From Anianabacter salinae (lineage in GTDB: Bacteria; Pseudomonadota; Alphaproteobacteria; Rhodobacterales; Rhodobacteraceae): a DNA stretch of 64,000 nucleotides. This document shows, one piece after another, positions 23,055 through 38,887 of the stretch. The DNA lies in assembly GCF_019061145.1 (NCBI RefSeq), contig NZ_JAHQZS010000001.1, forward strand, positions 434,001 through 498,000. Reading direction: 5' to 3'. The translations under genes and the position numbers were made by a program. The number at the start of each line of letters is the position of its first letter. The stretch's first letter is position 1. The notes beneath the pieces were generated by a model. It had not been told where the DNA came from and did no database searches. It saw only the letters and a list, made by a program, of their open reading frames with translations.

Positions 23055-25055
23055 TCAGTTCGGGGCGCTTGTTCCCATGGGCGCGGACGGAATGCCTTCC
23101 TTGCGCGCCTGCCACCAGTTCAGCCCGAGGATCAGCAGGATCAGCAGGGTGCCCGCGATCTCGATCCGCAGGTCGGGCCAGAACACCGCGATGACCCCGG
23201 GGATCAGAAGCGCCCGTCCCCAAAGTGCCATCGGCCGCCACAGGAACCCCTCCAGCGCGGCGGCAAAGGCGACGAGCGCGAGAATGGCGATTGCCCCGGC
23301 CCACAGCACCAGCGGCAGCGGACCGCCCAGGATGATCTCCTGGTTGAAGACCATGAACAGCGGGATCAGGTAGAGGCCCTTGGCGTATTTCCACGCCTGA
23401 ACGCTGGTCTCCATCGGTTTCGATCCGGCGATGGCGGCGCCCGCGAACCCCGCAAGCGCCACGGGCGGCGTCACGTTGCTGTCCTGCGAGTACCAGAACA
23501 CCACCAGATGCGCGATCAGCAGCGGAATGCCGAATTCCTGCGTCAGAGCGGGACCGACAAGGATAATCAGCACGATATAGGCCGCCGTGACCGGCAGACC
23601 CATGCCGAGGATCAGGCTGGCGATCAGCACCAGGATCAGCGCCAGCACAATGTTCCCGCCCGAGAAGGCGATCATCATGGCCGAGAACTTGAGCCCCAGG
23701 CCAGTCAGGCCGACGACACCGACGATGATGCCCGCCACCGCGCAGGCCATCGACACGGCGACCGCGTTGCGCGCGCCAAGCTCCAGCGCCTCGAGGGTCA
23801 GCGCGATGCCGCTGCGGCACAGGGCGACGAACTTGCCCGCCGTCGGTCCATTCGCCGTGAAGTTCCAGAGCGCCCGTGCCCCGGCGGCGGCGATCACCGA
23901 CACGATGGCATAGAAACCGACGCGCATCGGCGAGTATCCCGCGACCAGCAGCGCCACCAAGGCCACCAGTGGCAGCAGGAAATGCCAGCCATCGGCGAGA
24001 ACCTGGCGCACGCGCGGCAATTCCTCAGAGGTCAGCCCGGTCATGTTCTGTTTCACGGCGGCGATGTGGACCAGCAGATAGACGGCGCCGAAATACAGCA
24101 CCGCCGGAAAGATCGAGACCAGCACGATGTCGACATACGGCACGCGGGTGAACTCGCTCATCAGGAAGGCCCCGGCGCCCATCAGCGGCGGCATGATCTG
24201 CCCGCCCGTGCTGGCAGCGGCCTCGATCCCGCCCGCCTGCGCGGGGCGATAGCCAAGCTTCTTCATCAGCGGGATGGTAAAGGCGCCGGTCGTCACCACG
24301 TTGGCGATGGCCGAGCCGGAAATCGACCCCATGCCCGCGGACGCGATGACCGCGGCCTTCGCGGGGCCGCCGCGCTGGCGTCCGGTGGCGGCATAGGCGA
24401 GGTCGATAAAGAATTTGCCCGCGCCGGTCACTTCCAGGAAGGCGCCGAACAGCACGAAGATGAACACGAAGGTCGCGGCGACGCCCAGGGGGATGCCATA
24501 TATGCCCTCGGCGCCAAGGGTCATCTGGCTGGCCAGCCGGTCCAGCGAATAGCCGCGGTGGTTCATGATGCCGGGCATCCAGTCGGACAGGAACGGCAAC
24601 TCCCCCCGGTTGCCCGCGAAGGCGTAGACGATGAACAGCGCGCCGATCACCGTCATGCCCAGCCCGACCGCCCGGCGCGCGCCTTCCAGCACGACCAGCA
24701 CGGTCAGCACGCCGACCCAGATATCGACCGTGCGCGGGAAAATCTGGTTGGCGATGATGTCGATGTTCACCGGCAGCCAGGCGCCGACGAGAATGCTGAT
24801 GGCGATCAGCGCGCCGTCGATGGCCCAGCCCAGCGGGCCGCGCGGCTTGTCGCGGCCAAAGACCGGGTAGATCAGGAAGCACAGCACCAGAATGAAGCCA
24901 AGGTGGATCGGGCGCTGGAAGAACAGGCCAAGTGGCTGCAAACCGGCGGCGTAAAGCTGGAACAGCGACAGCGCGATGCCGATCACGGCGACCGCCCGCA
25001 GGACGAACCAGGGCTGCGGAGGCTCTTGCAGGCGCGCGGCGGTTTCGGTGTCCAT
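23055..25055 (-). CDS. TRAP transporter fused permease, TAXI type (DctQM fusion)
   Basis: A 666-residue membrane protein with a DctQ-like N-terminal portion (first ~180 residues, about four segments) fused to a DctM-like portion with more than ten segments. The GMGSISGSAIANVVTTGAFT and GMGLPVTAAYIVL regions are typical of TAXI permeases. It would import an organic acid with the TAXI receptor encoded two genes upstream. The start shares one base with the DUF1850 stop (TGATG). Confidence 0.92.
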   Translation of the reverse strand: MDTETAARLQEPPQPWFVLRAVAVIGIALSLFQLYAAGLQPLGLFFQRPIHLGFILVLCFLIYPVFGRDKPRGPLGWAIDGALIAISILVGAWLPVNIDIIANQIFPRTVDIWVGVLTVLVVLEGARRAVGLGMTVIGALFIVYAFAGNRGELPFLSDWMPGIMNHRGYSLDRLASQMTLGAEGIYGIPLGVAATFVFIFVLFGAFLEVTGAGKFFIDLAYAATGRQRGGPAKAAVIASAGMGSISGSAIANVVTTGAFTIPLMKKLGYRPAQAGGIEAAASTGGQIMPPLMGAGAFLMSEFTRVPYVDIVLVSIFPAVLYFGAVYLLVHIAAVKQNMTGLTSEELPRVRQVLADGWHFLLPLVALVALLVAGYSPMRVGFYAIVSVIAAAGARALWNFTANGPTAGKFVALCRSGIALTLEALELGARNAVAVSMACAVAGIIVGVVGLTGLGLKFSAMMIAFSGGNIVLALILVLIASLILGMGLPVTAAYIVLIILVGPALTQEFGIPLLIAHLVVFWYSQDSNVTPPVALAGFAGAAIAGSKPMETSVQAWKYAKGLYLIPLFMVFNQEIILGGPLPLVLWAGAIAILALVAFAAALEGFLWRPMALWGRALLIPGVIAVFWPDLRIEIAGTLLILLILGLNWWQARKEGIPSAPMGTSAPN

Positions 25056-25528
25056 CAGTCGTCAGCTCCTGTCAGCGAAAGGCGCACACGTTCGCGCGGG
25101 GCCACGGCAGAGAGCGACACCACCGTGTCGCCGACCTGCAGGCGGTGATCGACCGCAGGGCCTCCGGGGCGCAGCACATAGGCATTGCCGGGCACCGGCT
25201 CGTCGATATCAAGAATGAAATAGCCGCCGTGCCCGTCCGACACTTGCCGCCCGCGTCCCGGGATGTGCCCAAGACCGGCGGCGAAATCGGGCTGGTGGGT
25301 GCGGGTCAGGACCATGCGCCCGTCGCGGTTCTCGTAGCAGTCGGACACCTCGAAGCCCTGCACCGAATGGCGCCACAGAACGCACCAGCCGGTCCCGTCG
25401 GGAACCGGCAGACGCGCGATCTCTGTGCCGTCCGCACGCGCGGCGACAAGATCCTCCGCCAGGGCAGAGCAGGGGGCTGCGGCGAGCAGGAGGAGGGCGC
25501 AAAGCCCCCCTCCGGTCACGGCATTCAC
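25055..25528 (-). CDS. DUF1850 family protein of the TAXI-TRAP operon
   Basis: A 157-residue exported protein with a signal peptide (about residues 1-24). The DUF1850 region includes WCVLWRHSVQGFEVSDCYE. DUF1850 proteins almost always sit between TAXI receptor and permease genes, but their role is unknown. The start is GTG 25528, which gives a GTGA overlap with the receptor gene; the ATG at 25524 is out of frame. Confidence 0.85.
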   Translation of the reverse strand: MNAVTGGGLCALLLLAAAPCSALAEDLVAARADGTEIARLPVPDGTGWCVLWRHSVQGFEVSDCYENRDGRMVLTRTHQPDFAAGLGHIPGRGRQVSDGHGGYFILDIDEPVPGNAYVLRPGGPAVDHRLQVGDTVVSLSAVAPRERVRLSLTGADD

Positions 25529-26511
25529 GGGCGCAGCGCGTCCGGGATGTCGGCGCCGATTTCCTCGTAGTAGCGGATCGCACCGGGATGCAGCGGAACC
25601 GGCGTCGCGCCCAGCGTGAACTCGACCGTGGTCTCGTTCGCCGCCGGGTGGACCGCTTGCAGATCGGCGATGTTGGTGAACATCGCGCTGGTCAGCGCAT
25701 AGGCCAGATCGTCTGACATCTCGGACGACACGACCAGCACGTTCGGGATGCCCAGCACGTTGATATCGTCCTCGACACCGGTATAGGTGCCGCCCGCCAG
25801 CGTGGTGCGGGCAAAGGTCGGGTCGGCGGCCTGCGCGGCGGCCAGTTCTTCCTCGGACAGCTCCAGGATGACGATGCCGTTGGTGGTGGCAAGGTTCAGG
25901 ATCGACGAGGTCGGTGCCCCAACCGACCAGAACCCGGCGTCGATGTCGCCGTTCGCCAGTGCGTCCGCCGTCTCGTTGAAGTTCAGGCGCTGCTCGTCGA
26001 TCTCGTCATAGCTGATGCCATTGGCTTCGAGGATCGCGGCGGTGTTGACCTCGGTGCCGGACCCCGGTGCGCCGATCGACACGCGCTTGCCGCGCAGATC
26101 CTCAAGCGAGGTGATCCCGCTGCCTTCCAGCGCCACGATCTGCACCATGTTCGCGTAAAGCGAGGCAAGGCCGCGCACCATCGGAAGCTGCTGACCCTCG
26201 AACCGGCCGGTGCCGGAATAGGCCTGCGCAACGGTGTCCGCCAGCGCGATGGCAAGGTCCGCATCGCCGGTGGCGACAAGGCCCATGTTCTCGACCGAGG
26301 CGCCGGTGACTTCGGCGGTCGCCGAGTAGCCTTCGATGTGGTTGTTGACGATCTCGGCAAGGCCGCCGCCCATCGGGTAATAGACACCGCCGGTGCCGCC
26401 GGTCGCGATCGAAAGCTGTTGCTGCGCCAGACCGGGCGTCGCGACACCCATCGCGACGATGACAGCCGATCCAAGAAGGCCACGCGGGCCGCTGAGAATT
26501 TTGTGAAGCAT
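25525..26511 (-). CDS. TAXI family TRAP transporter solute-binding protein
   Basis: A 328-residue periplasmic receptor of the TAXI family. A signal peptide covers about residues 1-29 (ends PGLAQ). The family motif SIATGGTGGVYYPMGGGLA begins the mature chain and the SIGAPGSGTEVNTAAIL segment follows. Family ligands are glutamate-like or other carboxylates; the ligand here is unknown. A GGGAGGAC ribosome-binding site precedes the ATG. It is the first gene of the three-gene operon. Confidence 0.92.
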   Translation of the reverse strand: MLHKILSGPRGLLGSAVIVAMGVATPGLAQQQLSIATGGTGGVYYPMGGGLAEIVNNHIEGYSATAEVTGASVENMGLVATGDADLAIALADTVAQAYSGTGRFEGQQLPMVRGLASLYANMVQIVALEGSGITSLEDLRGKRVSIGAPGSGTEVNTAAILEANGISYDEIDEQRLNFNETADALANGDIDAGFWSVGAPTSSILNLATTNGIVILELSEEELAAAQAADPTFARTTLAGGTYTGVEDDINVLGIPNVLVVSSEMSDDLAYALTSAMFTNIADLQAVHPAANETTVEFTLGATPVPLHPGAIRYYEEIGADIPDALRP

Positions 26512-26546
26512 TTTAGTCCTCCCTTCAGGGGCATTTCGCCCGTAGA

Positions 26547-26568
26547 ATCCCGTATCTCCTCTCGGGAT
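26547..26568. promoter_or_regulatory. Inverted repeat upstream of the TAXI operon
   Basis: ATCCCG (26547-26552) and CGGGAT (26563-26568) flank a 10-bp spacer, 36 bases upstream of the TAXI receptor start. It may be an operator; the arms are short. Confidence 0.25.
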
Positions 26569-26707
26569 ATTCCTTCAACTAAAGCCATTTGGCCTGACAG
26601 AACACCGTTTTTATGCCTTGCGGGCCGAGTCTGCCGCTCGCAGGGGCGTGGCATGAACCTGTCCTCGCCCCAGACTGCACAAATCCTGTGCAGAGTGCAG
26701 CGGTGCC

Positions 26708-27445
26708 TCAGCCCGGGGTCCGCGCATCGCCCTCTTCTCCCGGCTGTCCCCGAAACACGAGGCGCACCAACGCCGCGACGGCGCACAGCATCAGCGCCCC
26801 GCCCGTCACCCACATGATCGCCCCCGCAAGGTGCTGGTCCGCCATCGGCGAGATCCCGTAGGGCAGGGTCGTCAGCAGGTGCCATGCGTGCCAGGGGGAT
26901 TGCGCAAAGACCAGCAGCGCCGACAACAGCGACATCTGCGCGGCGGTCAGTGCAAGGCCAAGCGCCACGGCATGCGGCCGGGCGGCGATCGCGGCAAGGA
27001 TCGCGGACCACATCAGCCACGCCGCGCCCACAAGCGACAGGTGCATCAGCCAGTATACCGCGTCAGACGCCAGCGTGGCCGCATATGGCGGCGGCGCGTG
27101 CCAGAGCCAGAACAGGACACCGAACAGGCTTGCGGCGGGCAGAACGCCGGCGCCGCGCAGGGGCATCGCCCGTGCCAGAAGCGGCGCCGCAACCAGCGTC
27201 AGCAGAAGGTGCTGCGCGACCCGCGCCGAGAACAGCGCCATCGACGCGGCACAGATCGGCGAGACGAACAGCAGCGTCACCAGCCCCCAGGCGGCGAGCG
27301 CGTGGCGCCTGCTGTCCGCGCGCCACGCCAGAAGCGCGCCCAAAGCGGCAAGCCCCGCGATCAGCACCGGATCGAACAGCCAGCGTGTCCAAAACTCGGC
27401 CGGGATCGGCGGGGTGCCGCAGAACGGAACATAGGTGTCCATCAT
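26708..27445 (-). CDS. ctaG: Cytochrome c oxidase assembly protein, CtaG (caa3 type)
   Basis: A 245-residue integral membrane protein of the caa3_CtaG family with about seven membrane segments. Conserved spots include the HAPPPY loop, the QHLLLT segment and the DQHLAGAIMW motif. It is thought to assist copper insertion into the oxidase. ATG 27445 has a GAGAGGA Shine-Dalgarno; ATG 27442 is adjacent. It is the last gene of the oxidase operon, 13 bases after the small membrane protein. Confidence 0.85.
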   Translation of the reverse strand: MMDTYVPFCGTPPIPAEFWTRWLFDPVLIAGLAALGALLAWRADSRRHALAAWGLVTLLFVSPICAASMALFSARVAQHLLLTLVAAPLLARAMPLRGAGVLPAASLFGVLFWLWHAPPPYAATLASDAVYWLMHLSLVGAAWLMWSAILAAIAARPHAVALGLALTAAQMSLLSALLVFAQSPWHAWHLLTTLPYGISPMADQHLAGAIMWVTGGALMLCAVAALVRLVFRGQPGEEGDARTPG

Positions 27446-27458
27446 GTGTCCTCTCCGG

Positions 27459-27776
27459 TCATCTGCACCCGTCCAGCAGGAGCACGGGCGAGGCGTTGAA
27501 CAGGATCGCCAGAACCGAGATCGTGATCGCCACGCGGGCGGCGATCCGCAGCGGCGCGTCGCCCCGGCGCAGCAGGCCCCAGCCCGCGGCAACGATCGCA
27601 ACGGGGGTCGCCACCGCGACGACGACCACAGACGCCGGATACGAGATCACTTCGCGCTCTGCGCAGGCCGCCGAGAACGCGCCGTAGACAACGATGAAAT
27701 GCAGCGTCCAGATCACCAGCGCGCGCAGGACATCGCGCAGGCCCGGGGCGATGGGGGCGGCGGTCAAGTCTGTCAT
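27459..27776 (-). CDS. Small three-segment membrane protein of the oxidase operon
   Basis: A 105-residue membrane protein with three hydrophobic segments (about 17-37, 44-65 and 77-95). I do not recognise a named family. It overlaps the oxidase subunit I stop by ATGA and precedes ctaG, so it may be a subunit IV-like or assembly component. Coding is supported by the hydrophobic pattern and coupling. Confidence 0.7.
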   Translation of the reverse strand: MTDLTAAPIAPGLRDVLRALVIWTLHFIVVYGAFSAACAEREVISYPASVVVVAVATPVAIVAAGWGLLRRGDAPLRIAARVAITISVLAILFNASPVLLLDGCR

Positions 27777-30268
27777 GTGAAGGCCTCCAGTTGCGGGGCG
27801 GCAAGGACGACGGCGGCCGCGACCAGCATTCCGGCTGTCACCACCGCGTAGGGCAGTCGGTTGATCTCGGGCACGGTCTGGCCCGGCGCGACCTGTCCAG
27901 TCAGCTTGCGCAGGGCAAGGAACACGCTCCAGTACAGCAGGACGAACAACTGCACGCCGATGAAGCCAGCCGTCATCCAGACCGCTCCGGCCAGGGCGGT
28001 CGCCAGAGGGTCCATCGGCAGAACCGCCAGATAAAGCGCGCCGCCCGCAGCAGCTGCGAAAAGCGCGAGGATCAGGTCCAGCAGGGCGTTCGGCCAGCGG
28101 CGTGCCAGCCAGGCGGTCAGCACGACGCCCGCGCCGCAAGCCAGCGCGGCGCCCGCCCAGTCAAGATCACCGTCCCCGGCAAGGCGGGCGAACTCGGGCT
28201 GCACGTTCCACAGATACATCACCCCCAACAGCAGCGAGGCAAAGAGCGCCACGAGGATCAGCAGCGTGCCGATGATCGCGATATGCGTGTGGCCCAGCCG
28301 CGACGGCAGGTTGACGGTCAGCGTGCCTTCGCTGGTCTCCAGGGTTTCGCCGGTCTCGGACGGCTCCCACGCCCAGACCGCAAAGCCGACAAGGGCCGCG
28401 ACAAGCCCCGCCGCCGCCACAAGGTAGAAGTTGGCCAGCAGCGCGGCAAAGCCGACAGCGACGCAGGCGGCCGTCACCAGAGGCACCCAGGTCGGGTGCG
28501 GAAGCCGCACGATCTGAAGCGGCTCGCCCGATAGCGGATGACAGCCCACGGTCTCGCGCCGCCCGTGCGGGGCATCGTGCAGCACGCCGTGCACCCTGTG
28601 GGCATCGCCGCCCAGCAACTCCGGCTGGTCCCACAGCGGCTCGCGCGAGTGCACGCGCGGGATGGCGTGAAAGTTGTGACCTGGCGCAATCGGCGGATAC
28701 ATCCATTCCAGCGTGCCCGCCTGCCAGGGATCGCGCGGCGCCAGCGGCCCGCGCCAGCGATGCGCGATGAAATCCCAGACGAACACTGCAACCCCGGCCG
28801 CAAGGATGTACGAGCCAATCGAGGACAGCATGTTCAGGCGGTCCCAGCCCAGCCCTTCGGGATAGGTCGCGATGCGGCGCGGCATCCCGCGCAGGCCGGT
28901 GATGTGCATCAGGAAGAAGGTGACGTGAAAGCCGATGAACATCAGCCAGAACGCCCAGCGGCCCAGCCGCTCCGACATCATCCGCCCGGTGAAATGCGGC
29001 GTCCAGTAGTAGAACGCCCCGATCAGCGGGAACACCATGCCGCCGATCAGGACATAATGCAGGTGCGCGACAACGAAATAGCTGTCGTGCGCCTGCCAGT
29101 TGAACGGAACAGAGGCCAGCATCACGCCTGTCAGCCCGCCGATCACGAAGATGAACAGGAACCCCAGGATGAAATGCATCGGCACGGTCAGGCGTGGCCG
29201 TCCCTGCGCCAGCGTGAGGATGAGGCAGAAGATCTGCACGCCGGTCGGGATCGTGACCATCGTCGAGGCGGCCGAGAACAGCGACAGCGTGATCATCGGC
29301 AGCCCCGTCGTGAACATGTGGTGCGCCCACAGCCCGAAGCTGATGAACCCCATCGCCACCACAGCCGCCACGGCATAGCCGTAGCCGAACAGAGGCTTGC
29401 CCACGAAAGTCGGCAACATCGTTGCGACCATCCCGGAAGCGGGGAGGAAGATGATGTAGACCTCGGGGTGGCCGAACAGCCAGAACAGGTGTTGCCACAG
29501 CAGCGGGTCGCCGCCCATCGCGGGATCGAAGAACGGCAGGCCCAGCAGCCGCTCGACCTCGAGCAGGATGGACCCGACGATCAGGGGCGGAAAGCCGACA
29601 GCGATCATGAAGGCGGTCACCAGCATGTACCATCCGAAGATCGGCATCTTCGTCAGCGACATGCCGGGCGCGCGGGTGCACAGGATGGCGGCGATCAGCT
29701 CGACCGCGGCGGTGACGCTGGCGATCTCGGCAAAGGTGATGCCGATCAGCCAGAAGTCTGCGGACAGGCCCGGCGTGTACTCCTTGCTGGACAGCGGCGT
29801 GTACATGAACCAGCCACCGGCGGGGGCGGCGTCGAACAGGAAGGACGCCAGCACGATCAGGCCGCCGAACAGGTAGCACCAGTAGCCGAAGGCGCCGAGC
29901 CGGGGAAAGATCAGGTCGCGCGCCCCCAGCATCAACGGCAACAGGTAGACGCCGAAACCCTCGAGGATGGGGATGGCGAACAGGAACATCATCAGCGTTC
30001 CGTGCATGGTGAAGACCTGGTTGTAGGTCTCGGCATCAAGGAACGTATTCTGCGGCACGATCAGCTGCGTGCGCACCAGAAGGGCGAGGAAACCGGCGAT
30101 CAGGAAGAACCCGAGCCCGGTGACGATGAACCGCTGCCCGACGACGCGGTGCGAGACCGAGGACAGCGACCGCCACCCCTTCGGGGTCGCCCATGCCCGC
30201 TCATAGAGCGGCAACTCATCAAGGATCGGGCCCTGCCGTGGCCTGTCGTCTGCGCTGGTGTCGGTCAT
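27773..30268 (-). CDS. ctaD: Cytochrome c oxidase subunit I with C-terminal membrane extension (I-III-like fusion)
   Basis: An 831-residue protein. The first ~540 residues are haem-copper oxidase subunit I: the haem a ligand His in HGTLMMF, CuB ligands in FGHPEVYIIFLP (with the cross-linked Tyr and the Glu of A1-type oxidases) and HHMFTTG, and haem a3/a ligands in HDSYFVVAHLHY. The remainder has about seven hydrophobic segments in the place of subunit III; the similarity to subunit III is weak, so the fusion call is tentative. It overlaps the subunit II gene by ATGA. It reduces oxygen to water with proton pumping. Confidence 0.92.
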   Translation of the reverse strand: MTDTSADDRPRQGPILDELPLYERAWATPKGWRSLSSVSHRVVGQRFIVTGLGFFLIAGFLALLVRTQLIVPQNTFLDAETYNQVFTMHGTLMMFLFAIPILEGFGVYLLPLMLGARDLIFPRLGAFGYWCYLFGGLIVLASFLFDAAPAGGWFMYTPLSSKEYTPGLSADFWLIGITFAEIASVTAAVELIAAILCTRAPGMSLTKMPIFGWYMLVTAFMIAVGFPPLIVGSILLEVERLLGLPFFDPAMGGDPLLWQHLFWLFGHPEVYIIFLPASGMVATMLPTFVGKPLFGYGYAVAAVVAMGFISFGLWAHHMFTTGLPMITLSLFSAASTMVTIPTGVQIFCLILTLAQGRPRLTVPMHFILGFLFIFVIGGLTGVMLASVPFNWQAHDSYFVVAHLHYVLIGGMVFPLIGAFYYWTPHFTGRMMSERLGRWAFWLMFIGFHVTFFLMHITGLRGMPRRIATYPEGLGWDRLNMLSSIGSYILAAGVAVFVWDFIAHRWRGPLAPRDPWQAGTLEWMYPPIAPGHNFHAIPRVHSREPLWDQPELLGGDAHRVHGVLHDAPHGRRETVGCHPLSGEPLQIVRLPHPTWVPLVTAACVAVGFAALLANFYLVAAAGLVAALVGFAVWAWEPSETGETLETSEGTLTVNLPSRLGHTHIAIIGTLLILVALFASLLLGVMYLWNVQPEFARLAGDGDLDWAGAALACGAGVVLTAWLARRWPNALLDLILALFAAAAGGALYLAVLPMDPLATALAGAVWMTAGFIGVQLFVLLYWSVFLALRKLTGQVAPGQTVPEINRLPYAVVTAGMLVAAAVVLAAPQLEAFT

Positions 30269-31200
30269 TTCAGGCTCGCCAGGTAATGCGCGACGGCGCG
30301 CAGGTCGGGGCCGCTCAGGTGGTTGAACGACGGCATTTCTGCGACGGGCTTCATGTCCTGCACATCGGCGATCCAGCCTGCCAGGTTGCCGACGTTCATT
30401 CGCCACATGCCCGCGCCAAGCGACCCGCGCGCGCCGACCCGGCTGAGGTCGGGGCCGATCCGCCCGCCTTCCGCAATGCCGCGGATGACATGGCATGCCG
30501 GGCAGCCCTCCCGCAGGAACACCTCGCGCCCCTGCTCCAGTTGCGCCGTGTCGGCATCACGCGCCTCGTCCTGCAGACCGGCCAGATAGGCGGCATACTC
30601 TGCCGGGGGCAGCACCAGCACCTCGAACGCCATCAGGGGATGCGACAGGCCGCAAAACTCGGCGCATTGCCCGCGGTAGCGGCCCGGCCGCGTCGCCGTG
30701 ACCGTCATCTCGTTAACCCGCCCGGGGATCATGTCCAGCTTGCCCGCGATGGATGGCACCCAGAACGAATGGATCACGTCGCCAGACCGCAGCCGAAGCG
30801 TCACTTTGGTGTCCGCCGGCAGGACGATCTCGTTGGCATCACGCAAGGCGCGCCCTTGCGGATCGTGCACGACGTCCCACCAATAATGATGGCCCGTCAC
30901 CTCGATCACCGGAGCGGTGTCGCCGGTCCGTCCGATCGCGGCCAGCGTGAAGGTCGAGGCGGCGACCAGCGCGGCCAGGGCCAGCACCGGCAGGACAACG
31001 CCGCCCGCCCAGATCCACCAGACATGCCCGGGCCGATTGCGCCGCCGCGCCAGCCAGACCGCGCCCATCACCAGAAGGAACAGAACGCCGCCCGCGACGG
31101 ACATCGCGGTGGTCAGGCCAAGCGTCGCCGCCGCCCCGCTGCCTGCAGAGGAGAACGACGTCTGGCTTCCGTAGTCGGCAAGCGTGCTCGTGTTGTTCAT
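30265..31200 (-). CDS. ctaC: Cytochrome c oxidase subunit II with fused cytochrome c
   Basis: A 311-residue protein. Two membrane segments lie near the N-terminus (about 30-52 and 62-85). The CuA site is complete: His in HSFWVPS, and CAEFCGLSHPLM with two Cys, Glu, His and Met. A C-terminal cytochrome c domain has CPACH and a Met ligand near EMPSFNH. This caa3-type arrangement receives electrons from the c-cytochromes encoded upstream. ATG 31200 overlaps the preceding cytochrome gene by ATGA. Confidence 0.93.
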   Translation of the reverse strand: MNNTSTLADYGSQTSFSSAGSGAAATLGLTTAMSVAGGVLFLLVMGAVWLARRRNRPGHVWWIWAGGVVLPVLALAALVAASTFTLAAIGRTGDTAPVIEVTGHHYWWDVVHDPQGRALRDANEIVLPADTKVTLRLRSGDVIHSFWVPSIAGKLDMIPGRVNEMTVTATRPGRYRGQCAEFCGLSHPLMAFEVLVLPPAEYAAYLAGLQDEARDADTAQLEQGREVFLREGCPACHVIRGIAEGGRIGPDLSRVGARGSLGAGMWRMNVGNLAGWIADVQDMKPVAEMPSFNHLSGPDLRAVAHYLASLK

Positions 31201-31700
31201 GCGTCCGCCCCGAGGGTCAGCAGATACGCGGCCATGTCGGCGGCGTCGGCCTCTTCGACCCCAAGGTCCGGCATCGCGGTCTGCGGCGAGAACAGCGGCG
31301 GGTTCATCAGCCAGCGGCTCAGATCGCCCGGCGTATTCGTCAGGACCCCGGCAATGTAGGCACGGCCAACCAGGTTGTGGAGGGAAGGGCCGACCGTGCC
31401 GCGGGCGCCTGCAACACCGGGGATCAGGTGGCAGGCTCCGCATCCGTATTCCGTCATCAGGCGCCGTCCGCGCCCGGCATCGCCAAGCGCGGCGGCTCGC
31501 ATCGCATCCAACGTCGGGCGGCCGCCGCCCGGGCCTTGGGCATACCAGTCCGTCACGGCCCGCAGCCGCGCGGATGCCGCGCCGAGGGCATCCCCCAACG
31601 GATCACGCGCCGGAGCCGCGAGAGCCCAGACCGTGACCAGTGCAGCGCAGGCCGCAGTAAGCCCGGCCACCGACAGGGTTGCCGCCGCCTTCCCCCACAT
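31197..31700 (-). CDS. Mono-haem cytochrome c, membrane-anchored
   Basis: A 167-residue cytochrome c with an N-terminal hydrophobic segment (about residues 5-27) acting as signal or anchor. There is one haem site, CGACH. A Met ligand is likely in TAMPDLG. It lies 5 bases after the di-haem cytochrome gene and overlaps the subunit II gene, so it probably carries electrons between the two. The longer frame upstream loses protein-like character. Confidence 0.85.
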   Translation of the reverse strand: MWGKAAATLSVAGLTAACAALVTVWALAAPARDPLGDALGAASARLRAVTDWYAQGPGGGRPTLDAMRAAALGDAGRGRRLMTEYGCGACHLIPGVAGARGTVGPSLHNLVGRAYIAGVLTNTPGDLSRWLMNPPLFSPQTAMPDLGVEEADAADMAAYLLTLGADA

Positions 31701-31705
31701 GCCGC

Positions 31706-32488
31706 CTATTCGCCCGTCGTCTCGGGATTGTGGACGCGCATGTAGTATTCGCTGACGGCGCGCATGTCCTCTTCGCTCATCTTCTCGGCGATGGCGCTCA
31801 TCACGCCCATCGCGTCGTTGTCGCGCACGCCTTCCTTCCAGAGTTGAAGCTGATAGCTCATGTAGTTCGCATATTGCCCTGCCAGGTAGGGGACAGAGGG
31901 CGGATTGCCGGTGCCTTCGGCGCAGTGACAGTTCACGCAGGCCGGGATGCCCTTTTCCGCCGATCCGACAGCGGCAAGCTGGCCGCCCCATTGCAGAAGA
32001 CCCAGATCGATCTCGCCCAGCGGCTTTTCGATGGGCGCCTCGACGACCGAGTAATAGACCGCGACCGCCTCGCGCTCGCGTTCCGTCAGGCGCTGGGCGA
32101 TGCCTGTCATCACCTCGTTCGGACGCGCGCCCGAGGCATAGTCGTTAAGCTGCTTGTAGGTGTACCAACCGGACAGGCCCGTCAGGCGCGGGAACGCACC
32201 CGAGCCGTCGCCCGCGCCCTGGCCGCCGTGGCAGGTGATGCAGGCCATCCCCGAGCCGCCGTTCTCGGCGCCGCCCATCGCGACAAGCGGACCGAGTTCC
32301 AGAAGGTCGTCGTCGGGGGCCGTGTCGCTGACCGTCGCGTTGAACAGCGAGCGCTCGTCGTCCAGCCGCGCCTCAAGTTCGCTGATAGCGGGAGTTTCGG
32401 TGTCCTGAGCGCCGACCATGACGGGGATGGGCGCCAGCGCCGCGAGCATGGCGAGACGTGCAAAGGTCTTGCGGATGCCGGGTTTCAT
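31706..32488 (-). CDS. Di-haem cytochrome c (c4-like)
   Basis: A 260-residue exported protein with a signal peptide (about residues 1-27). Two haem sites are present, CITCH in the first half and CVNCH in the second; each half is a small cytochrome c domain, as in cytochrome c4. It sits directly after the GMC flavoprotein gene (11 bases) and may be the electron acceptor of that dehydrogenase, in place of the tri-haem subunit of classical gluconate 2-dehydrogenase. That role is inferred. Confidence 0.88.
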   Translation of the reverse strand: MKPGIRKTFARLAMLAALAPIPVMVGAQDTETPAISELEARLDDERSLFNATVSDTAPDDDLLELGPLVAMGGAENGGSGMACITCHGGQGAGDGSGAFPRLTGLSGWYTYKQLNDYASGARPNEVMTGIAQRLTEREREAVAVYYSVVEAPIEKPLGEIDLGLLQWGGQLAAVGSAEKGIPACVNCHCAEGTGNPPSVPYLAGQYANYMSYQLQLWKEGVRDNDAMGVMSAIAEKMSEEDMRAVSEYYMRVHNPETTGE

Positions 32489-32499
32489 GTCTGCCTCCT

Positions 32500-34284
32500 T
32501 CAGGCGTCCATCAGCGGACGGGGGTTCGCAAGGTAATCGGATTTCAGGTGGTCCAGCGTCCAGTAGGCCAGACCCATCAGCGGCCCCGTGGGGTTGTAGC
32601 CAAGGTTCTGCGGGAACAGGCAGGCGCCGAAGACAAAGACGTTATGGTGGTCCCACATCTGGCCGTAGCGGTTGACGACGCTGGTGCTGGGGTCGGTGCC
32701 GATCACCGCACCGCCGGTGTTGTGCGTGGTCTGGTAGGGCTCGATGCTGTAGCCGCTGCCTTCTGCCGCGCGGTTGCTCGACGAATACGACCGGACATGC
32801 TCCATGTTCCGGGCGATCTCGACGGCGCGCTCCATCACGTAGTTCGACATTCGCCGGTCGTTGTCGGGAAAGTCGAAGGTCATCCGAAGTAGCGGGCGGC
32901 CGAAAGAGTCGGTCCAGGTGGGATCGAGGTCGAGGAAGTTGTCGGGCGTCGCCATCGACGAGCCGTGCACGCCGATCCCGGCATGGTGCAGGTAGTTCTC
33001 GCGCACCGCGCGCTTCCACTCCGCGCCCCAGGGCGGGGTGCCCTCGGGCGTCGGCTGATAGCTGATCGGACGACCGTGATACTGGTTGCAGGCGACATAG
33101 CCGCCACCGACGAAGCCAAGCTCGGAATGGTCGAAGTTGTCGCCGTTGTAGTCGTCGATGACCGTGCCAAGCGCGCCCGCGCCCATGAACGGGTTGGTGA
33201 TGATTTCCTCGTCAAAGAAGACATCGACGCCCGCGAGGGTCTGGTAGGCATAGTTGCGCCCCACCGTGCCGGTGCCCGTCTGCGGATCGTAGGGCCTGCC
33301 CAGCCCCGAGACCAGCATCAGGTGCACGTTCCAAAGCGCGTAAGCGTTCATGCAGACCACATCCGCGGGCTGGAAAACCTCCAGCCCGTCGGAGTCGATG
33401 TAGGTGACGCCGGTGGCGGTCTGGCCGTCCTCGGATTTCTCCACTCGCATCACGGTCGAGCGGAACCGGATCTCGAAATTCTCGTGTTCCTTGATGCGAT
33501 CGTAGACGCAGATGATCGGATCGGCCTTGGCGAAATACCCGCAGCCGAAGCGTTCGCAGAACCCGCAATAGGTGCAGGGATGCAGCTGCGCGCCATACGG
33601 GTTCTCGTATTTCTGCGTGACGTTCGCCGAGGGCAGGGGGAACGGGTGCAGGCCCATGTCCGCCGCCGCCTCGCCGAACAGGGTCGAGCGGATCGGCTGC
33701 TTCATTGGAGGGTTGGGATACTCGTCGCTGCGCGGCCCTTCGAAGACGTTGCCGCCCTCGCGTGTCTCGCCGTTCAGGTTGCCCGCGTATCCGGCGGCGC
33801 CGCAGATCTTCTCGAAGAAATCGAGGTGCGGCTCCAATTCTTCATAGGTGACGCCCCAGTCCTGCACGTTCAGGTTCTCGGGAATGAACTGCGCGCCATA
33901 GCGGCTCTCGTAGTGGCTGCGCATCTCCAGGTCGGACGGCAGCGGTCGCCAGATCTGGCCGTTCCAGTGGATGCCCGCGCCGCCGAGCCCTTCGCCCGGC
34001 AGGAACGATCCCAGCCGCCGCATCGGCAGCGCGCGCTGCGAACGGTTGTTGCGGAAGGTCAGCGTGCTGGTCTTCACGTCCATCATGTGGGTGTGGTGCA
34101 GCGCGTATTTCAGCTCGTCATGTTCTTCGGGCGCGCCAAAGCTGGTCGCATCGTGGCGATGATCGCCGCGTTCGAGGACCACGCATTTCTGGCCCTCATG
34201 GGCCAGCTCATAGGCCGCCGTCAGGCCGGTCCAGCCACCACCGATGATAACCACGTCGGTCCTGGGAAGGGTCTTGTCGGGCAT
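32500..34284 (-). CDS. GMC oxidoreductase, FAD-GDH/gluconate 2-dehydrogenase large-subunit type
   Basis: A 594-residue flavoprotein. The FAD Rossmann motif VVIIGGGWTGLTAAYEL is at residues 11-27. A CTYCGFCERFGC cluster (four Cys, near residue 235) resembles the Fe-S-binding loop of FAD-dependent glucose dehydrogenases. HNTGG and NLGYNPTGPLMGLAYW occupy the C-terminal GMC region. It has no signal peptide, as expected if carried out by the Tat signal of its partner (small subunit, 34288-34986). It oxidises a sugar, sugar acid or polyol in the periplasm and passes electrons to cytochrome c. Confidence 0.92.
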   Translation of the reverse strand: MPDKTLPRTDVVIIGGGWTGLTAAYELAHEGQKCVVLERGDHRHDATSFGAPEEHDELKYALHHTHMMDVKTSTLTFRNNRSQRALPMRRLGSFLPGEGLGGAGIHWNGQIWRPLPSDLEMRSHYESRYGAQFIPENLNVQDWGVTYEELEPHLDFFEKICGAAGYAGNLNGETREGGNVFEGPRSDEYPNPPMKQPIRSTLFGEAAADMGLHPFPLPSANVTQKYENPYGAQLHPCTYCGFCERFGCGYFAKADPIICVYDRIKEHENFEIRFRSTVMRVEKSEDGQTATGVTYIDSDGLEVFQPADVVCMNAYALWNVHLMLVSGLGRPYDPQTGTGTVGRNYAYQTLAGVDVFFDEEIITNPFMGAGALGTVIDDYNGDNFDHSELGFVGGGYVACNQYHGRPISYQPTPEGTPPWGAEWKRAVRENYLHHAGIGVHGSSMATPDNFLDLDPTWTDSFGRPLLRMTFDFPDNDRRMSNYVMERAVEIARNMEHVRSYSSSNRAAEGSGYSIEPYQTTHNTGGAVIGTDPSTSVVNRYGQMWDHHNVFVFGACLFPQNLGYNPTGPLMGLAYWTLDHLKSDYLANPRPLMDA

Positions 34285-34287
34285 GCC

Positions 34288-34986
34288 TTACACCTCCTGC
34301 GGTTTCAGGCCCGAGGGAATGCGTCCGTCACCCCCGGGTTCGTGATTGATGCCCGTGGGCGGCTGCGGATACGGCACGTTGTGCTTGTCGACGAAGGACA
34401 GGTAATAGGCGTGCGCGCCGGGGAACCCGACCATTTCCCACCCGGCATAGCCTTCGTTGCCTCCGTAGATCGGATCGGCGAAATAGCCTTGGTTCGTCAG
34501 GGTCCACAATTCGTCGAACAGCGGCTTGGCGGGAAGGTCCCCAAGGTCGAAGTCATCCTCGGACAGGCGGGTCAGGACAGAGCTGCGCGCCTCAGTGTCT
34601 GCGTCCACGAAGCCGGTTTCGGCCTCCATCAGCGCGGCGATGCCCTGCCGGATGAACGTCGCAGGGATCAGGGACACCTGATAGCCCTGTTCGGGGGTGC
34701 CCGACGGAAACGGGGGCTGCATGTAGATGAACTGGCCCTTGCCGTAGGGCCCGGCCAGTTGCAGGTCGATGAAATCGACGACCCCGGCCTGCGAGGCGCT
34801 GGGAAAGTCGTCTTCGGGGATCAGCGTATCGCACAGGGCGGCCAGGAACCGCGCTTCGTCCGGTGTGAGAAAGTAGAACGGCTTGTCATCCAGCGCCGCG
34901 AAGGCGTGGTTGATCGGCAAGGTGGAAAGGGCGGCTCCAGACGTCAGGCCCGCAAGGACTGCGCGTCTTGAGAATAGCGTTCCCAT
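34288..34986 (-). CDS. Gluconate 2-dehydrogenase subunit 3 family protein
   Basis: A 232-residue Tat-exported small subunit. The signal contains SRRAVLAGLTSGAAL with the twin arginine at residues 7-8. The family region TPDEARFLAALCDTLIPEDDFPSA follows, and GWEMVGFPGA ends the conserved part. Family members chaperone and export the flavoprotein. ATG 34986 has a GGGGAAGA ribosome-binding site; the longer frame is not Tat-like. It is the first gene of the respiratory operon. Confidence 0.9.
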   Translation of the reverse strand: MGTLFSRRAVLAGLTSGAALSTLPINHAFAALDDKPFYFLTPDEARFLAALCDTLIPEDDFPSASQAGVVDFIDLQLAGPYGKGQFIYMQPPFPSGTPEQGYQVSLIPATFIRQGIAALMEAETGFVDADTEARSSVLTRLSEDDFDLGDLPAKPLFDELWTLTNQGYFADPIYGGNEGYAGWEMVGFPGAHAYYLSFVDKHNVPYPQPPTGINHEPGGDGRIPSGLKPQEV

Positions 34987-35060
34987 GTAATCTTCCCCCA
35001 CAAGGTCGGATGGCGTGATCGTGAAGAAAACAAGGCTGCTGTGAGAATGTTCCTGACGGG

Positions 35061-35084
35061 GTTCCGCAAAATCCGGGGCGGAAC
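35061..35084. promoter_or_regulatory. Inverted repeat upstream of the GMC/oxidase operon
   Basis: GTTCCGC (35061-35067) and GCGGAAC (35078-35084) are perfect arms around a 10-bp spacer, 75 bases upstream of the first gene. The rest of 34987-35195 is an AT-rich, promoter-like gap. An operator role is inferred. Confidence 0.4.
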
Positions 35085-35195
35085 GACGGATTTTCTCGCA
35101 AATTATTGATAGGTAGAAAGATTTTTTGGCGCGCTGTCGCAGGATCACCCCCCGCAGTCGGCGAAAGGCCCGGGGCGGAACGGCGGCGCAGCGCG

Positions 35196-35849
35196 TCAGT
35201 CGCTGTCGGTGAACACCTCTCCCAGTCCCTTGCGCACGTCGCGCTTTGCGGCGACCAGCACCTCGTCGCCTTCCTTCAGGGCGGTGTCCTGCGCAAGGTC
35301 GATGTCGTCCGATCCGCGCAGGACTGCGATCGCCCTCGCCCCTTGCGGAAGCTCGACATCGGCCAGCGTGCTGTCTTCAAGCGACTTCGGCACCGAGTAG
35401 GTGGTGAAATGCAGACCCTCGGCCACGCCAAGCTGCGACCAGACCCGTTCGTCGTGCTCCAGCGAATGCACGATGGACCCGGCCACGGTGACATGCGGAG
35501 TCACCACGTCGTCAAATCCCAACTCGTCGCAGACGGCCAGAAATTGCGCGCGCACGATCTGAAGCACGATGCGCTCGTACCCGATCGAGCGGCCGACGAC
35601 GGCGCCAAGGATGTTCACGTCGTCATGGTTGGTCATCAACATGAGCGCATCCGCGCTGTCGCCATAGGCGTCCCGCTGGGTGCGGGGCAGGGTGCCGTCG
35701 CCGTGGATGAACCCGCATTCCAGCTCGTCCGACAACTCGTCCAGCCGTTCGCGGGACTGGTCAACGAGCACCACGTCGAAATCATGTTCCAGCAACTCTT
35801 CGACAAGCGCCACGCCGAGGCGCGAGGCGCCGATGACGACGATCCGCAT
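35196..35849 (-). CDS. trkA: Trk potassium uptake regulatory protein TrkA (single NAD-binding unit)
   Basis: A 217-residue RCK protein. A Rossmann domain (residues about 1-115) starts VVIGASRLGVALVEELLE with Asp binding the ribose at the end of strand two; the glycine motif is GxSxxG rather than GxGxxG. A TrkA_C domain covers about 135-215. It gates TrkH in response to nucleotides. It follows trkH after 4 bases. Confidence 0.88.
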   Translation of the reverse strand: MRIVVIGASRLGVALVEELLEHDFDVVLVDQSRERLDELSDELECGFIHGDGTLPRTQRDAYGDSADALMLMTNHDDVNILGAVVGRSIGYERIVLQIVRAQFLAVCDELGFDDVVTPHVTVAGSIVHSLEHDERVWSQLGVAEGLHFTTYSVPKSLEDSTLADVELPQGARAIAVLRGSDDIDLAQDTALKEGDEVLVAAKRDVRKGLGEVFTDSD

Positions 35850-35853
35850 GATG

Positions 35854-37299
35854 TCAGCTCCTTTTCAGCCAGGTAGAGGGAAGGCACAGCACGATGAGCG
35901 CCACGAATTCGAGCCGCCCCAGCAGCATCGCCAGCAGCAGGACAAGCTTCAGGTTTTCGGCGAGGTCGGGCGCGGCGACGCCCTGGCTCAGCCCCACGGT
36001 GGACAGGGCCGAAACGACCTCGAACAGGCCGGGCAACGGGTCGATCCCCGAGGCGAGAAAGATGATCCAGAACACGATCAGCGCGCCCATGTAGAGCATC
36101 AGCAGCGACGTGACGGCGATGACGCGGTCGGCCTCGACCTTGCTTCCGGCGTCGCGCAGATAGGTTAGCGCGCTGGGCGGCACCCGCACGCGCACGACGC
36201 TGAGGCGGACCATCTGCACCAGCACCGACAGGCGACTGACCTTGATGCCGCCGGCGGTCGACCCGATGTCGCCGCCGATCAGCATGGCCAGAAGGATCAG
36301 CGGCAACAGCGAGACGTGGCTCGATACCTCGTTGGTGGAAAATCCCGCCGTGGTGAAGCCGCTGAGGAAATTCAGAACGCCGCGAAATGCCTCCTGCAGG
36401 GAAGGGCGGTTCACCGCAAAGTCCACCGCGCAGAAACACAACACGCCGCACAGCATCAGCCCCAGCGTGGCCGCGACATGCGATTTCCGCAGCGCCGCGG
36501 ACAGGCCGTCGCGCATGATCTGGATGTAGAACATCAACGAAACCGCGGCTGCGACGCAGATGCCGATGACGGTTGCCTGCGCCAGCGGCGAATAACTGCC
36601 CAGGCTGTCAGTGCGCGGCGTGAAGCCCCCGGTGGACACGGCGGACAGCGCAACGCTGACCGCCTCCCACCAGGTCGGCAGCAAGAGCAGGCACAGCAGG
36701 ACCGACAGCATCGTCAGCCCCGCGTAAGAGATCAGAAGTTGCCGCGCCTGGGCCCGCACCGACGTCTTGTCGTCGCGTTCGGTGATCGTGCTGCTGCCCA
36801 TCGACAGCGACGCGCCCGACCCGCCCGAAAAGATGGCCAGACCGGCGAAGGCGATGGCAAAGCCGCCGCACCACTGCATCCAACCCCGCAAGAGATGCGC
36901 CGCGACCGGCCAGCTTTCGGTGTTCGCCGCAAGGCTGAGACCTGTCGAGGTGATGCCTGAGACCGACTCGAACAGGGCGTCGAGCGGCGGCATTCCCAGC
37001 ATCATCAGCGGCGGCATCACGGACAGGCTGGCCAGAATGAACATCAGGGCGAAACTTACGAACGCCTCGATCCGGCGCAGGTCCTGCGGAAACGCGGCAG
37101 AGCGGTAGGCCACGGCGATCAGCACAAGGACGGCGATCTGCGGCGCAAAGGCCAAGGCAAGCGCCCGTTCCTGCATGACCAGCGCCGCCAGAGCCGGAGG
37201 CACCACGACGGCAAGCAGCACCAGCGCCTGTTGCGACAGGGCCAGCGCCACGACGCGCGGCCGGGCACGCAGCGCGGTCTCTGCGTTCAGCCCGCGCAT
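35854..37299 (-). CDS. trkH: Trk-type potassium uptake membrane protein TrkH
   Basis: A 481-residue potassium transporter. All four P-loop filter segments are visible, each with a central Gly: TSTGLS, VSTGGF, TTAGFS and STVGLS. About eight to ten membrane helices surround them. It moves K+ with TrkA. The gene is divergent from exoD. Confidence 0.9.
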   Translation of the reverse strand: MRGLNAETALRARPRVVALALSQQALVLLAVVVPPALAALVMQERALALAFAPQIAVLVLIAVAYRSAAFPQDLRRIEAFVSFALMFILASLSVMPPLMMLGMPPLDALFESVSGITSTGLSLAANTESWPVAAHLLRGWMQWCGGFAIAFAGLAIFSGGSGASLSMGSSTITERDDKTSVRAQARQLLISYAGLTMLSVLLCLLLLPTWWEAVSVALSAVSTGGFTPRTDSLGSYSPLAQATVIGICVAAAVSLMFYIQIMRDGLSAALRKSHVAATLGLMLCGVLCFCAVDFAVNRPSLQEAFRGVLNFLSGFTTAGFSTNEVSSHVSLLPLILLAMLIGGDIGSTAGGIKVSRLSVLVQMVRLSVVRVRVPPSALTYLRDAGSKVEADRVIAVTSLLMLYMGALIVFWIIFLASGIDPLPGLFEVVSALSTVGLSQGVAAPDLAENLKLVLLLAMLLGRLEFVALIVLCLPSTWLKRS

Positions 37300-37475
37300 G
37301 ACGGGCGGGGCAATGTGGCAGAAGTCATGTCAGCCAAGCGTCCCGGGAGGACAAAGATTCCCTTGCGGGAACACCTTGCGCCCGGAGGTGTTTTGACAGG
37401 GCGCCGGGAACGAACCGACCCGAACCACATTCAGCCGCCCTGGCCGCGCCGCGACAAGGATGAGGAACCCAAGGC

Positions 37476-38063
37476 ATGGCCGATCAGCCCGAACCACGTT
37501 CCCTGAGCGAGATCCTCGACGCGGTCCGGGCGCTGGGCGGCGAGCGGGACACGGTCAGCGTGGACGACGTCGTGAACGAGCTTGGGCGCGCCTCGACCGC
37601 TGCCTTGCTGTTCGTTCCCGCGATCACCGCCACGACGCCTCTTAGCGGGATACCGGGGCTTTCCGCCCTGTGCGGCATCATGATTGCCGTGGTGTCGGCG
37701 CAGGCGGTTGTGGGGCGTCACTGCCTGTGGCTGCCCCGCTTCATCACCCGCCGCACCGTGGAAGGCACGCGCATTCACGATTCGCTCGACAAGGTGCGCC
37801 CCATCACCACCTTCCTTGACCGCCACACCCACGAGCGGTTTCATCTCCTCGTGCGGGGGCCGGGCACGAGGGCGCTGTTCGCGCTGTGCATGATGGGCGG
37901 AATGGTCATGCCGTTCCTCGAATTCATCCCGTTCTCGGCCTCGGCGGTGGCGGCCTGCATCACGCTTCTGACCATCGCGATCCTGACGCTGGACGGGCTT
38001 GTCGCGCTGGCAGGGCTTTGCCTTGTGGTGGCGGCGGGCGGTCTTCTGGCCTGGCTGATCTGA
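37476..38063 (+). CDS. exoD: ExoD-like exopolysaccharide synthesis protein
   Basis: A 195-residue ExoD-family membrane protein. A soluble N-terminal part (LSEILDAVRALGG) is followed by about four hydrophobic segments; FVPAITATTPLSGIPGLSALCG is family-like. In rhizobia exoD influences polysaccharide production and alkali sensitivity. Neighbouring K+ uptake genes fit a pH or ionic stress role, though this is inference. The gene starts 176 bases from trkH in a divergent arrangement. Confidence 0.8.
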   Translation: MADQPEPRSLSEILDAVRALGGERDTVSVDDVVNELGRASTAALLFVPAITATTPLSGIPGLSALCGIMIAVVSAQAVVGRHCLWLPRFITRRTVEGTRIHDSLDKVRPITTFLDRHTHERFHLLVRGPGTRALFALCMMGGMVMPFLEFIPFSASAVAACITLLTIAILTLDGLVALAGLCLVVAAGGLLAWLI

Positions 38064-38069
38064 CTTCGG

Positions 38070-38687
38070 TCACCCAAGCCTGCGCACGACGTCGTCGCCG
38101 ATCCGCAGGGCAAGCGCGGCGATCGTCAGGGTCGAATTCACGCAGGCGCCCGAGGGGAAGACCGACGAGCTTGCCAGATAGAGGTTCTCGTGGTCGTGGC
38201 ACCGGCAGTCGCCATCCACGACGGCGTCGCTTCGGTCTGCGCCCATGATCGTGCTGCCCATGATGTGATTGTTCGGGCGAAACCCCTCGCTGCCATCCTC
38301 GATGCTGACCAGCGACGCGCCAAGCTTGTCCACGATGTCTCGGAACACCTCGGCGGTGTGCCGCGCACTGCGCTGGACGTACTCGCCGACGCGGTAGTCG
38401 ATGACCGGGCGGGGCAGGCCCAGCGGGTCCATCTTGTCTTGGCTCAGGGTCAGGCGGTTCTGCGGATCGGCAAGCTGTTCGTGGAAATTCGCGATGGAAC
38501 AGCGCCGGGCGGCGCGGGTTCTGACGGCCTCGGCAAGCTCGGTGCCGGTCAGGCCCTCGTCGATTGCCTCCTGTGCCACGCCAGAGACGGCAGATCCGTT
38601 CCACAGGTGCAGCTTCTTGGCCGCCATCCGGCGCCGGTGATCGCCGTCGCGGAACTTGAGGATCCGCCCGAGCGGATCGGGTTTTCA
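38070..38687 (-). pseudogene. GMC oxidoreductase remnant (C-terminal part only)
   Basis: About 205 codons in frame match the C-terminal third of a GMC oxidoreductase: FHEQLADPQNRLTLSQDKMD, then the NNHIMGSTIMGAD region and NLYLASSSVFPSGACVNSTL. The N-terminal FAD-binding part is missing; upstream the frame meets a stop at 38685-38687. An ATG at 38627 could start a 185-residue product, but without the FAD domain it should be inactive. It may have been cut by a deletion or recombination whose edge is near 38690. Confidence 0.7.
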
Positions 38688-38783: not shown

Positions 38784-38887
38784 CGCGCCCGGCTGCGAAG
38801 CTGGCCGAAGGCTAGCCGAAGGCTGGTCGGAACAAGTCCCCCTCGGCGCTGTTCTTGTGCTGGAACACCAGCAGGAAAGGACACCTC

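Follow-up and report, generated by a model that had tools for sequence, protein, structure and literature searches.

We analysed a stretch of 64,000 nucleotides from the 3.64 Mb genome of Anianabacter salinae (bases 434001-498000 of contig 1; hereafter the window), in which eight collinear minus-strand genes, running from 34986 to 26708, encode a dehydrogenase dependent on flavin adenine dinucleotide (FAD), two cytochromes c and a caa3-like cytochrome c oxidase. The first gene encodes a Gluconate_2-dh3 small, or hitch-hiker, subunit of 232 amino acids (aa) with a twin-arginine leader (34288-34986; PF13618, 2.6e-26), and the second a leaderless GMC FAD dehydrogenase of 594 aa with the motif C-x2-C-x2-C-x4-C (32500-34284; PF05199, GMC_oxred_C, 4.2e-16). 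These are followed by a di-haem cytochrome c of 260 aa, whose leader looks Sec-like by eye (31706-32488; Cytochrom_C, two CXXCH), and by a mono-haem cytochrome c of 167 aa with an N-terminal segment that appears hydrophobic by eye (31197-31700; Cytochrom_C, one CXXCH). Next come oxidase subunit II, with CuA ligands (CAEFCGLSHPLM) and a C-terminal haem c (30265-31200; COX2 and Cytochrom_C), an 831-aa protein that we read as a fusion of subunits I and III (27773-30268; COX1, 1.1e-148), a small membrane protein of 105 aa (27459-27776) and a CtaG-type oxidase assembly protein of 245 aa (26708-27445; Caa3_CtaG, 1.3e-24).

From the first to the last gene, the intergenic gaps are 3, 11, 5, -4, -4, -4 and 13 base pairs (bp). 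A preliminary description of this DNA had placed all these genes in one minus-strand cluster with close spacing and overlaps, in agreement with our annotation: every gene lies where it was said to lie, the Pfam domains agree, the gaps are 13 bp or less, and the three overlaps measure 4 bp. A promoter-like site of the EcfG type, GGAAC-N16-TGTT (35029-35053, minus strand), begins 67 bp before the first gene. Within 26400-35300 no sigma-70-like promoter was found, and the five terminator-like sites there compare with 5.2 in shuffled sequence. Only one PF13618 match is present in the source genome, together with three COX1 matches in all, one of the others (L009) being an ordinary Lys-type enzyme, and the genome also encodes bc1 cytochrome b. 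Given the two other COX1 genes and the bc1 cytochrome b, the block represents an extra branch beside general respiration.

Linkage of the dehydrogenase and the oxidase

The FAD glucose and fructose dehydrogenase family has a PF13618 subunit exported by twin-arginine translocation (Tat) and clustered cysteines, like the window. The nearest solved relatives of the GMC subunit are indeed fructose and glucose dehydrogenases (complexes 6a2u and 7w2j), related by sequence and remote (best E 2e-17). The proposed assignment as a Tat-dependent enzyme of the FAD-dependent glucose dehydrogenase (FAD-GDH) type agrees with the twin-arginine motif on the PF13618 subunit, which adjoins the GMC catalytic subunit. 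In contrast to those complexes, the window has a di-haem and a mono-haem cytochrome, and the standard tri-haem subunit of the FAD-GDH heterotrimer is not present. The dehydrogenase may work like this heterotrimer, but is not a standard member, and its substrate is probably a sugar or polyol. By description only, it can also be likened to the FAD glucoside 3-dehydrogenase of Rhizobium radiobacter, which uses a small mono-haem CYTc as acceptor and for which the excerpt of the report mentions no linked oxidase (PMC9915066).

We then compared GMC loci from four sources: a search of the family, in which 7 of 149 genomes had a match; a search of the class, with matches in 16 of 385 (the own genome is counted in both); named genomes (the best 80 of at least 565 relatives); and plasmids. 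Altogether 104 GMC loci were examined; two of them (L028 and L047) are the same Dinoroseobacter shibae plasmid, and further duplicates are possible. We defined the window clade as the loci with a GMC protein at least 57% identical to that of the window, which gave 15 rows plus one locus (L064) that ends 1205 bp after the GMC gene and was set aside; after dropping the duplicate L028 and adding the window, 15 loci were retained. In all 15 uncut clade loci the GMC gene is directly followed by a di-haem cytochrome, and the locus also contains a long-type subunit I. Out of the 88 loci below 57% GMC identity, 78 carry a tri-haem, three a mono-haem and one a di-haem cytochrome, four carry none and two are cut. 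The suggestion that the di-haem cytochrome takes the place of the usual tri-haem subunit is supported. A subunit I of the same oxidase group was found nearby in 8 of the 88 distant loci (that of L067 is cut, and L048 and L050 had been picked for their oxidase), and an ordinary COX1 in 4 of 88.

On a GMC tree of 64 of the 103 sequences (all oxidase-linked ones and every second of the others), the di-haem loci formed one group (Shimodaira-Hasegawa-like approximate likelihood ratio test, 97). The oxidase-linked tri-haem loci fell elsewhere; they lie near one another with three unlinked loci interspersed, and four changes are required on this tree for the label 'oxidase nearby'. Locus counts and tree together indicate that replacement of the tri-haem by the di-haem cytochrome accompanies the oxidase, and the tree placement that a second oxidase association arose in a tri-haem clade. 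The linkage spans genomes labelled Roseobacteraceae, Paracoccaceae and Rhizobiaceae as well as metagenome-assembled genomes (MAGs) labelled Methylobacterium and Hydrogenophilales. Among the matches listed, the closest is a Puniceibacterium MAG (sp. LH_M47; GMC 86% identical), with all eight genes in the same order. The same eight genes also occur in the same order on D. shibae plasmid pDSHI02 (DSHI_RS19645-RS19610; GMC 81.5%), a cluster that differs in being plasmid-borne and in being followed by a flavin monoamine oxidase family gene and a cytochrome; a literature search that did not reach most subscription journals turned up no paper joining 'pDSHI02' with 'cytochrome c oxidase'. Far outside Pseudomonadota, plasmids of Thermus thermophilus (hits H72 and H73) carry a GMC dehydrogenase 55% identical to that of the window.

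Dehydrogenase features are also conserved in the clade. The twin-arginine motif is present on the PF13618 protein of 14 of the 15 members and was not found on that of L063, and all 15 GMC proteins start, by eye, with the nucleotide-binding motif and without a leader. The cysteine motif, which predicts an iron-sulphur (Fe-S) centre, occurs in 123 of 124 GMC sequences, duplicates counted.

Pairwise divergence of GMC and subunit I was correlated over the 15 loci (r 0.73; 2 of 2000 permutations as high), and more strongly over the 13 left without L051 and L062 (r 0.92; 0 of 2000). In these two loci, from Sulfitobacter pontiacus (L051) and a Methylobacterium MAG (L062), the GMC protein is 79% and 70% identical to that of the window, yet subunit I is only 44% identical and still belongs to the same oxidase group. 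This is most simply explained by two replacements of the oxidase, in both cases by a different member of this unusual group, and we regard these swaps as our best evidence for a functional tie between dehydrogenase and oxidase. In L062 the oxidase is divergently oriented, and in L051 two transporter genes (DedA and APC) stand between, which indicates that a single transcript is not obligatory. The earlier proposal of one complete electron path is thus supported in part, by the collinear block, the clade-wide linkage and the correlated divergence.

Directly downstream of the cluster, on the same strand, lie genes for a TAXI-type TRAP transporter and a DUF1850 protein (23055-26511). We considered the two TAXI-TRAP genes (25525-26511 and 23055-25055; about 200 bp downstream) as part of the system and rejected them, since they are absent among the flanking open reading frames (ORFs) common to at least four clade loci; most clade loci in this comparison extend only about 10 kb past the GMC gene. 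On the other side, 38070-38627 (minus strand) encodes what appears to be a remnant, a C-terminal GMC piece of 185 aa; L056 and L029 have relatives of it, about 546 aa long, near the cluster.

The oxidase group and its proton channels

The preliminary description had called subunit I 'extended', which was correct for its length of 831 aa and missed the nature of the extension. No Pfam COX3 match was obtained in this region. We therefore relied on fold: in an AlphaFold model built with 18 sequences (predicted template modelling score 0.80, mean predicted local distance difference test (pLDDT) 71), the extension is well predicted, with blocks across 590-820 mostly at pLDDT 69-95 (lowest 64). The first Foldseek match was 2yev_A, the I+III fusion of Thermus thermophilus caa3 (TMq 0.77), and VIA-align superposed 733 residues over model positions 29-825 (root-mean-square deviation 3.2, Z 37.2). 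By Z score 8qqk_A was top (39.4) and 2yev_A only rank 20; among the rows listed, 2yev_A alone covers the whole extension, and the others say little about residues past 582. Because its fold matches 2yev_A, we take the extension (approximately residues 595-831; 27776-28486, minus strand), as modelled, to be a diverged fused subunit III domain.

Subunit II of Thermus caa3 bears haem c and CuA, as in the window, whose subunit II keeps the CuA ligands and fused haem c that a caa3-type enzyme requires. The likeness to the Thermus enzyme (2yev) also lies in the I+III fusion; the window oxidase differs in its link to a dehydrogenase, in its small protein and, judged against ordinary controls, in the replaced channel residues described below. 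The motifs of the binuclear-centre histidines and the cross-link tyrosine are retained in subunit I (GHPEVY, HHM and AHxHY). The small membrane protein, already noted in the preliminary description, turned out to be a conserved companion of the oxidase group: a small hydrophobic ORF follows subunit I in 54 of 58 group loci, and a profile from nine seeds gave 36 further matches at E<1e-3. Its relatives share a Trp, a Phe, a Tyr and two Cys, both Cys being present in at least 70%. Four members tried gave no Pfam family, and there was no significant NCBIfam match.

We aligned 81 COX1 sequences of the group and its relatives, including the window, with 16 ordinary COX1 (residue numbering follows R. 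sphaeroides). All 81 had been found by similarity to the window's subunit I or beside relatives of its dehydrogenase; L054 and L156 are the same record, L052 and L193 look identical, and a distant COX1 (L011) and the one cut by its contig (L067) were left out of residue counts. The K-channel lysine (K362), present in 16 of 16 ordinary enzymes, is Gln in 76 of the 81, namely Gln345 of the window (codon 29234-29236, minus strand) and 75 relatives. Three asparagines, which we take to act in the D-channel, are also present in 16 of 16 ordinary enzymes, whereas of the 76 Gln-type sequences all have an aliphatic residue for N121, 73 have another residue for N139 and 75 have Glu for N207. Other residues are retained: D132 in 72, E286 in 75 and Y288 in 76 of the 76, and R481/R482 in 61 of 61. 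A third kind of COX1 (L172, L173, L174, L202 and L203) keeps the asparagines, has Trp in the position of E286 and carries Ala, Gly or Ser where ordinary enzymes have the K-channel lysine.

In subunit II, the E..W..P motif at the K-channel entrance was found in 0 of 77 group members, the window's included, versus 7 of 11 controls (1 of 77 and 8 of 11 with another cut-out); of the remaining controls, two have E..W, one does not extend over this region and one fell outside the cut-out. In ordinary aa3 oxidases, engineered mutants of the K-channel and of the D-channel Asn residues are impaired or uncoupled. A K362M mutant and a decoupling mutation of the D-pathway appear in PDB titles among our structure matches. 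Excerpts of a review give D132, K362 and subunit II E101 as channel residues (PMC8239185), and those of another paper state that lysine-less mutants still perform the first reduction step and that in the A-family every pumped proton takes the D-channel (PMC8079940). With the K-channel lysine and the D-channel asparagines replaced, the oxidase probably handles protons differently from ordinary aa3 enzymes, and the residue pattern suggests lower or different coupling.

The group is widely distributed. In a class sample we found 31 places in at least 25 of 385 genomes at 556 bits or more, 3 of the 31 being of the Trp kind; since no more than two top candidates per genome were scored, these counts are lower bounds. 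The group and the Trp kind scored at least 556 bits and the other listed COX1 at most 432. In a phylum sample, 39 of 398 genomes matched at 1e-160, and 20 places examined comprised 18 Gln and 2 Trp kinds. To our knowledge, this I+III-fused Gln-type group is unnamed, and the same literature search brought up no paper on either the arrangement or the oxidase group. Three group loci (L050, L068 and L115) have a subunit II in which the CuA ligands are missing, as would be the case in a quinol oxidase, so that part of the group may take quinol; a tri-haem GMC dehydrogenase adjoins the oxidase in L050 and L068, and a GMC gene with a cut end in L115.

Probable control by the general stress response

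The site before the first gene resembles GGAAC-N16/17-CGTT, which we take to be the EcfG consensus. In 10 of the 15 clade loci the pattern GGAAC-N16/17-YGTT starts 56-67 bp ahead of the first gene, compared with 2.2% of random 380-bp pieces from the same loci and 7 of 77 tri-haem loci without oxidase; L033 and L062 have a site with one mismatch. The source genome has a NepR match, beside which stand adjacent genes that look to us like phyR, a sensor kinase and an ecfG-like sigma factor; the TGTT variant seen before the block also lies upstream of the phyR-like gene. These observations suggest that the operon is probably switched on by the PhyR-NepR-EcfG general stress response.

Elsewhere in the oxidase group the sites are suggestive only. 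The oxidase-linked tri-haem loci have a site in 3 of 8, at scattered positions, and other alphaproteobacterial group loci in 12 of 44 on the sense strand, with six sites on the opposite strand; 0 of 12 ordinary and 1 of 18 non-alphaproteobacterial loci have one. In three Tistrella-type loci a site starts about 60 bp ahead of the dehydrogenase, counted to the annotated start in L054 and to the aligned one in L158 and L159.

The neighbouring genes fit a stress island. Further EcfG-type sites lie at 37368-37392 and 38829-38853 (both plus strand), shortly before an ExoD-like gene (37476-38063) and a short-chain dehydrogenase/reductase gene (38891-39742), respectively. Potassium uptake genes, TrkA and TrkH, stand beside the cluster (35196-37299, minus strand) and occur within about 8 kb in 8 of the 15 clade loci, the window and seven others. 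TrkG and TrkA also occur near a Roseomonas oxidase of the group (L049).

A candidate periplasmic route to oxygen

We favour, with fair rather than firm confidence, the reading that the block encodes a dedicated periplasmic electron shunt from substrate to O2, with a distinct oxidase and probable stress control. A Tat-exported FAD dehydrogenase, formed by the small and GMC subunits, would oxidise a periplasmic substrate, and electrons would pass from FAD through the Fe-S centre to the di-haem and then the mono-haem cytochrome c. From there they would enter haem c and CuA of subunit II and reach O2 through haem a and haem a3/CuB, a route that would bypass quinone and bc1. Each of these transfer steps is inferred from motifs and gene order. 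The PhyR-NepR-EcfG response would induce the operon. In terms of known kinds, the system is a variant, an FAD-GDH-like dehydrogenase without its tri-haem subunit combined with a caa3-like oxidase without the K-channel lysine. By description only, it can be likened to Bradyrhizobium CoxMNOP, an alternative cytochrome c oxidase with its own genes.

Several observations weigh against this proposal. Divergence of the mono-haem cytochrome follows that of GMC more weakly (r 0.43, reached in 48 of 2000 permutations; r 0.52, reached in 97 of 2000, in the 13-locus core), partly because the best match in some loci is subunit II, and in L051 and L029 no mono-haem gene was found between the di-haem and subunit II genes. 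The subunit I model is poor at residues 284-356, Gln345 among them, and E..W is still present in the K-channel glutamate region of 13 of 77 group subunits II; accordingly, it is the window, and not the group in its entirety, for which loss of the glutamate is clear. As for control, five of the 15 clade loci have no exact EcfG site (L059, L061, L062 and L063 among them), that of the window reads TGTT rather than CGTT, and the strict pattern is not enriched genome-wide (72 matches versus 92 in the reversed control). Finally, among group oxidases chosen irrespective of any dehydrogenase, counting partners by tblastn with GMC, PQQ (pyrroloquinoline quinone) and sorbosone queries (at least 35% identity and 100 bits), we found a sugar-type dehydrogenase nearby in only 6 of 26 class loci, three of them Tistrella-type, and in 0 of 18 phylum loci. 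Ordinary COX1 loci had a tested dehydrogenase nearby in 0 of 11 cases. The oxidase-dehydrogenase pairing is recurrent, not general.

Plasmid records picked from the similarity list, which are not a sample, show different partners: a membrane PQQ-glucose dehydrogenase (Tistrella), a PQQ dehydrogenase (Sulfitobacter OXR-159), a PQQ-like beta-propeller (Rhodobacter CZR27) and a divergent sorbosone-dehydrogenase family gene (Aminobacter). In the records from Roseomonas, Alteromonas, Paracoccus, Pelagibacterium and Azospirillum, none of these dehydrogenases directly adjoins the oxidase. We put forward only tentatively, and would not expect it to hold in full, a broader proposal. Under it, the I+III-fused group without K-channel lysine and D-channel Asn gate would be a weakly coupled or non-pumping O2 sink, plugged onto unrelated periplasmic sugar dehydrogenases (FAD/GMC, the Tistrella PQQ-glucose dehydrogenase and the sorbosone-dehydrogenase family) and placed under general-stress control, burning periplasmic substrate without the quinone pool. 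Even without pumping, electrons arriving from outside and protons from inside would still build some potential.

The channel replacements could instead be immaterial, the enzyme pumping as usual through a substitute path and forming an ordinary caa3-type branch to which a dehydrogenase is attached. This is compatible with a dedicated shunt, and we consider it quite possible, a little short of even. D132, E286, Y288 and the R481/R482 pair are nearly always kept, and excerpts of the review cited above describe B- and C-type oxidases without a D-channel (PMC8239185), which indicates that channels can change. Against this, four subunit I positions change together and stay changed across the group.

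Less likely, in our view, is that the dehydrogenase feeds a common cytochrome c pool on which the oxidase draws, the two being neighbours through shared stress induction and not through private exchange. The di-haem cytochrome appears soluble, judged by its leader, which would suit such a pool, as would the gene orders of L051 and L062 and the presence of other COX1 genes and bc1 cytochrome b in the genome. Conversely, an oxidase of the group is kept in all 15 uncut clade loci, even when swapped, and occurs in few of the distant ones. Transfer of the electrons to ubiquinone, as in the tri-haem FAD-GDH-like dehydrogenases, which reduce quinone, with the oxidase as a separate unit, would fit the tri-haem cytochrome of most distant loci and the linked subunits II that have no CuA ligands, but is very improbable for the window clade, which has no tri-haem subunit and a subunit II that keeps CuA and haem c.

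If the shunt is real, these bacteria would own a private, stress-switched route from a periplasmic substrate to O2 beside their energy-conserving chain. The oxidase group would also offer a natural test of which channel residues oxidases need: engineered channel mutants are impaired or uncoupled, yet a whole natural group is maintained with replacements there.

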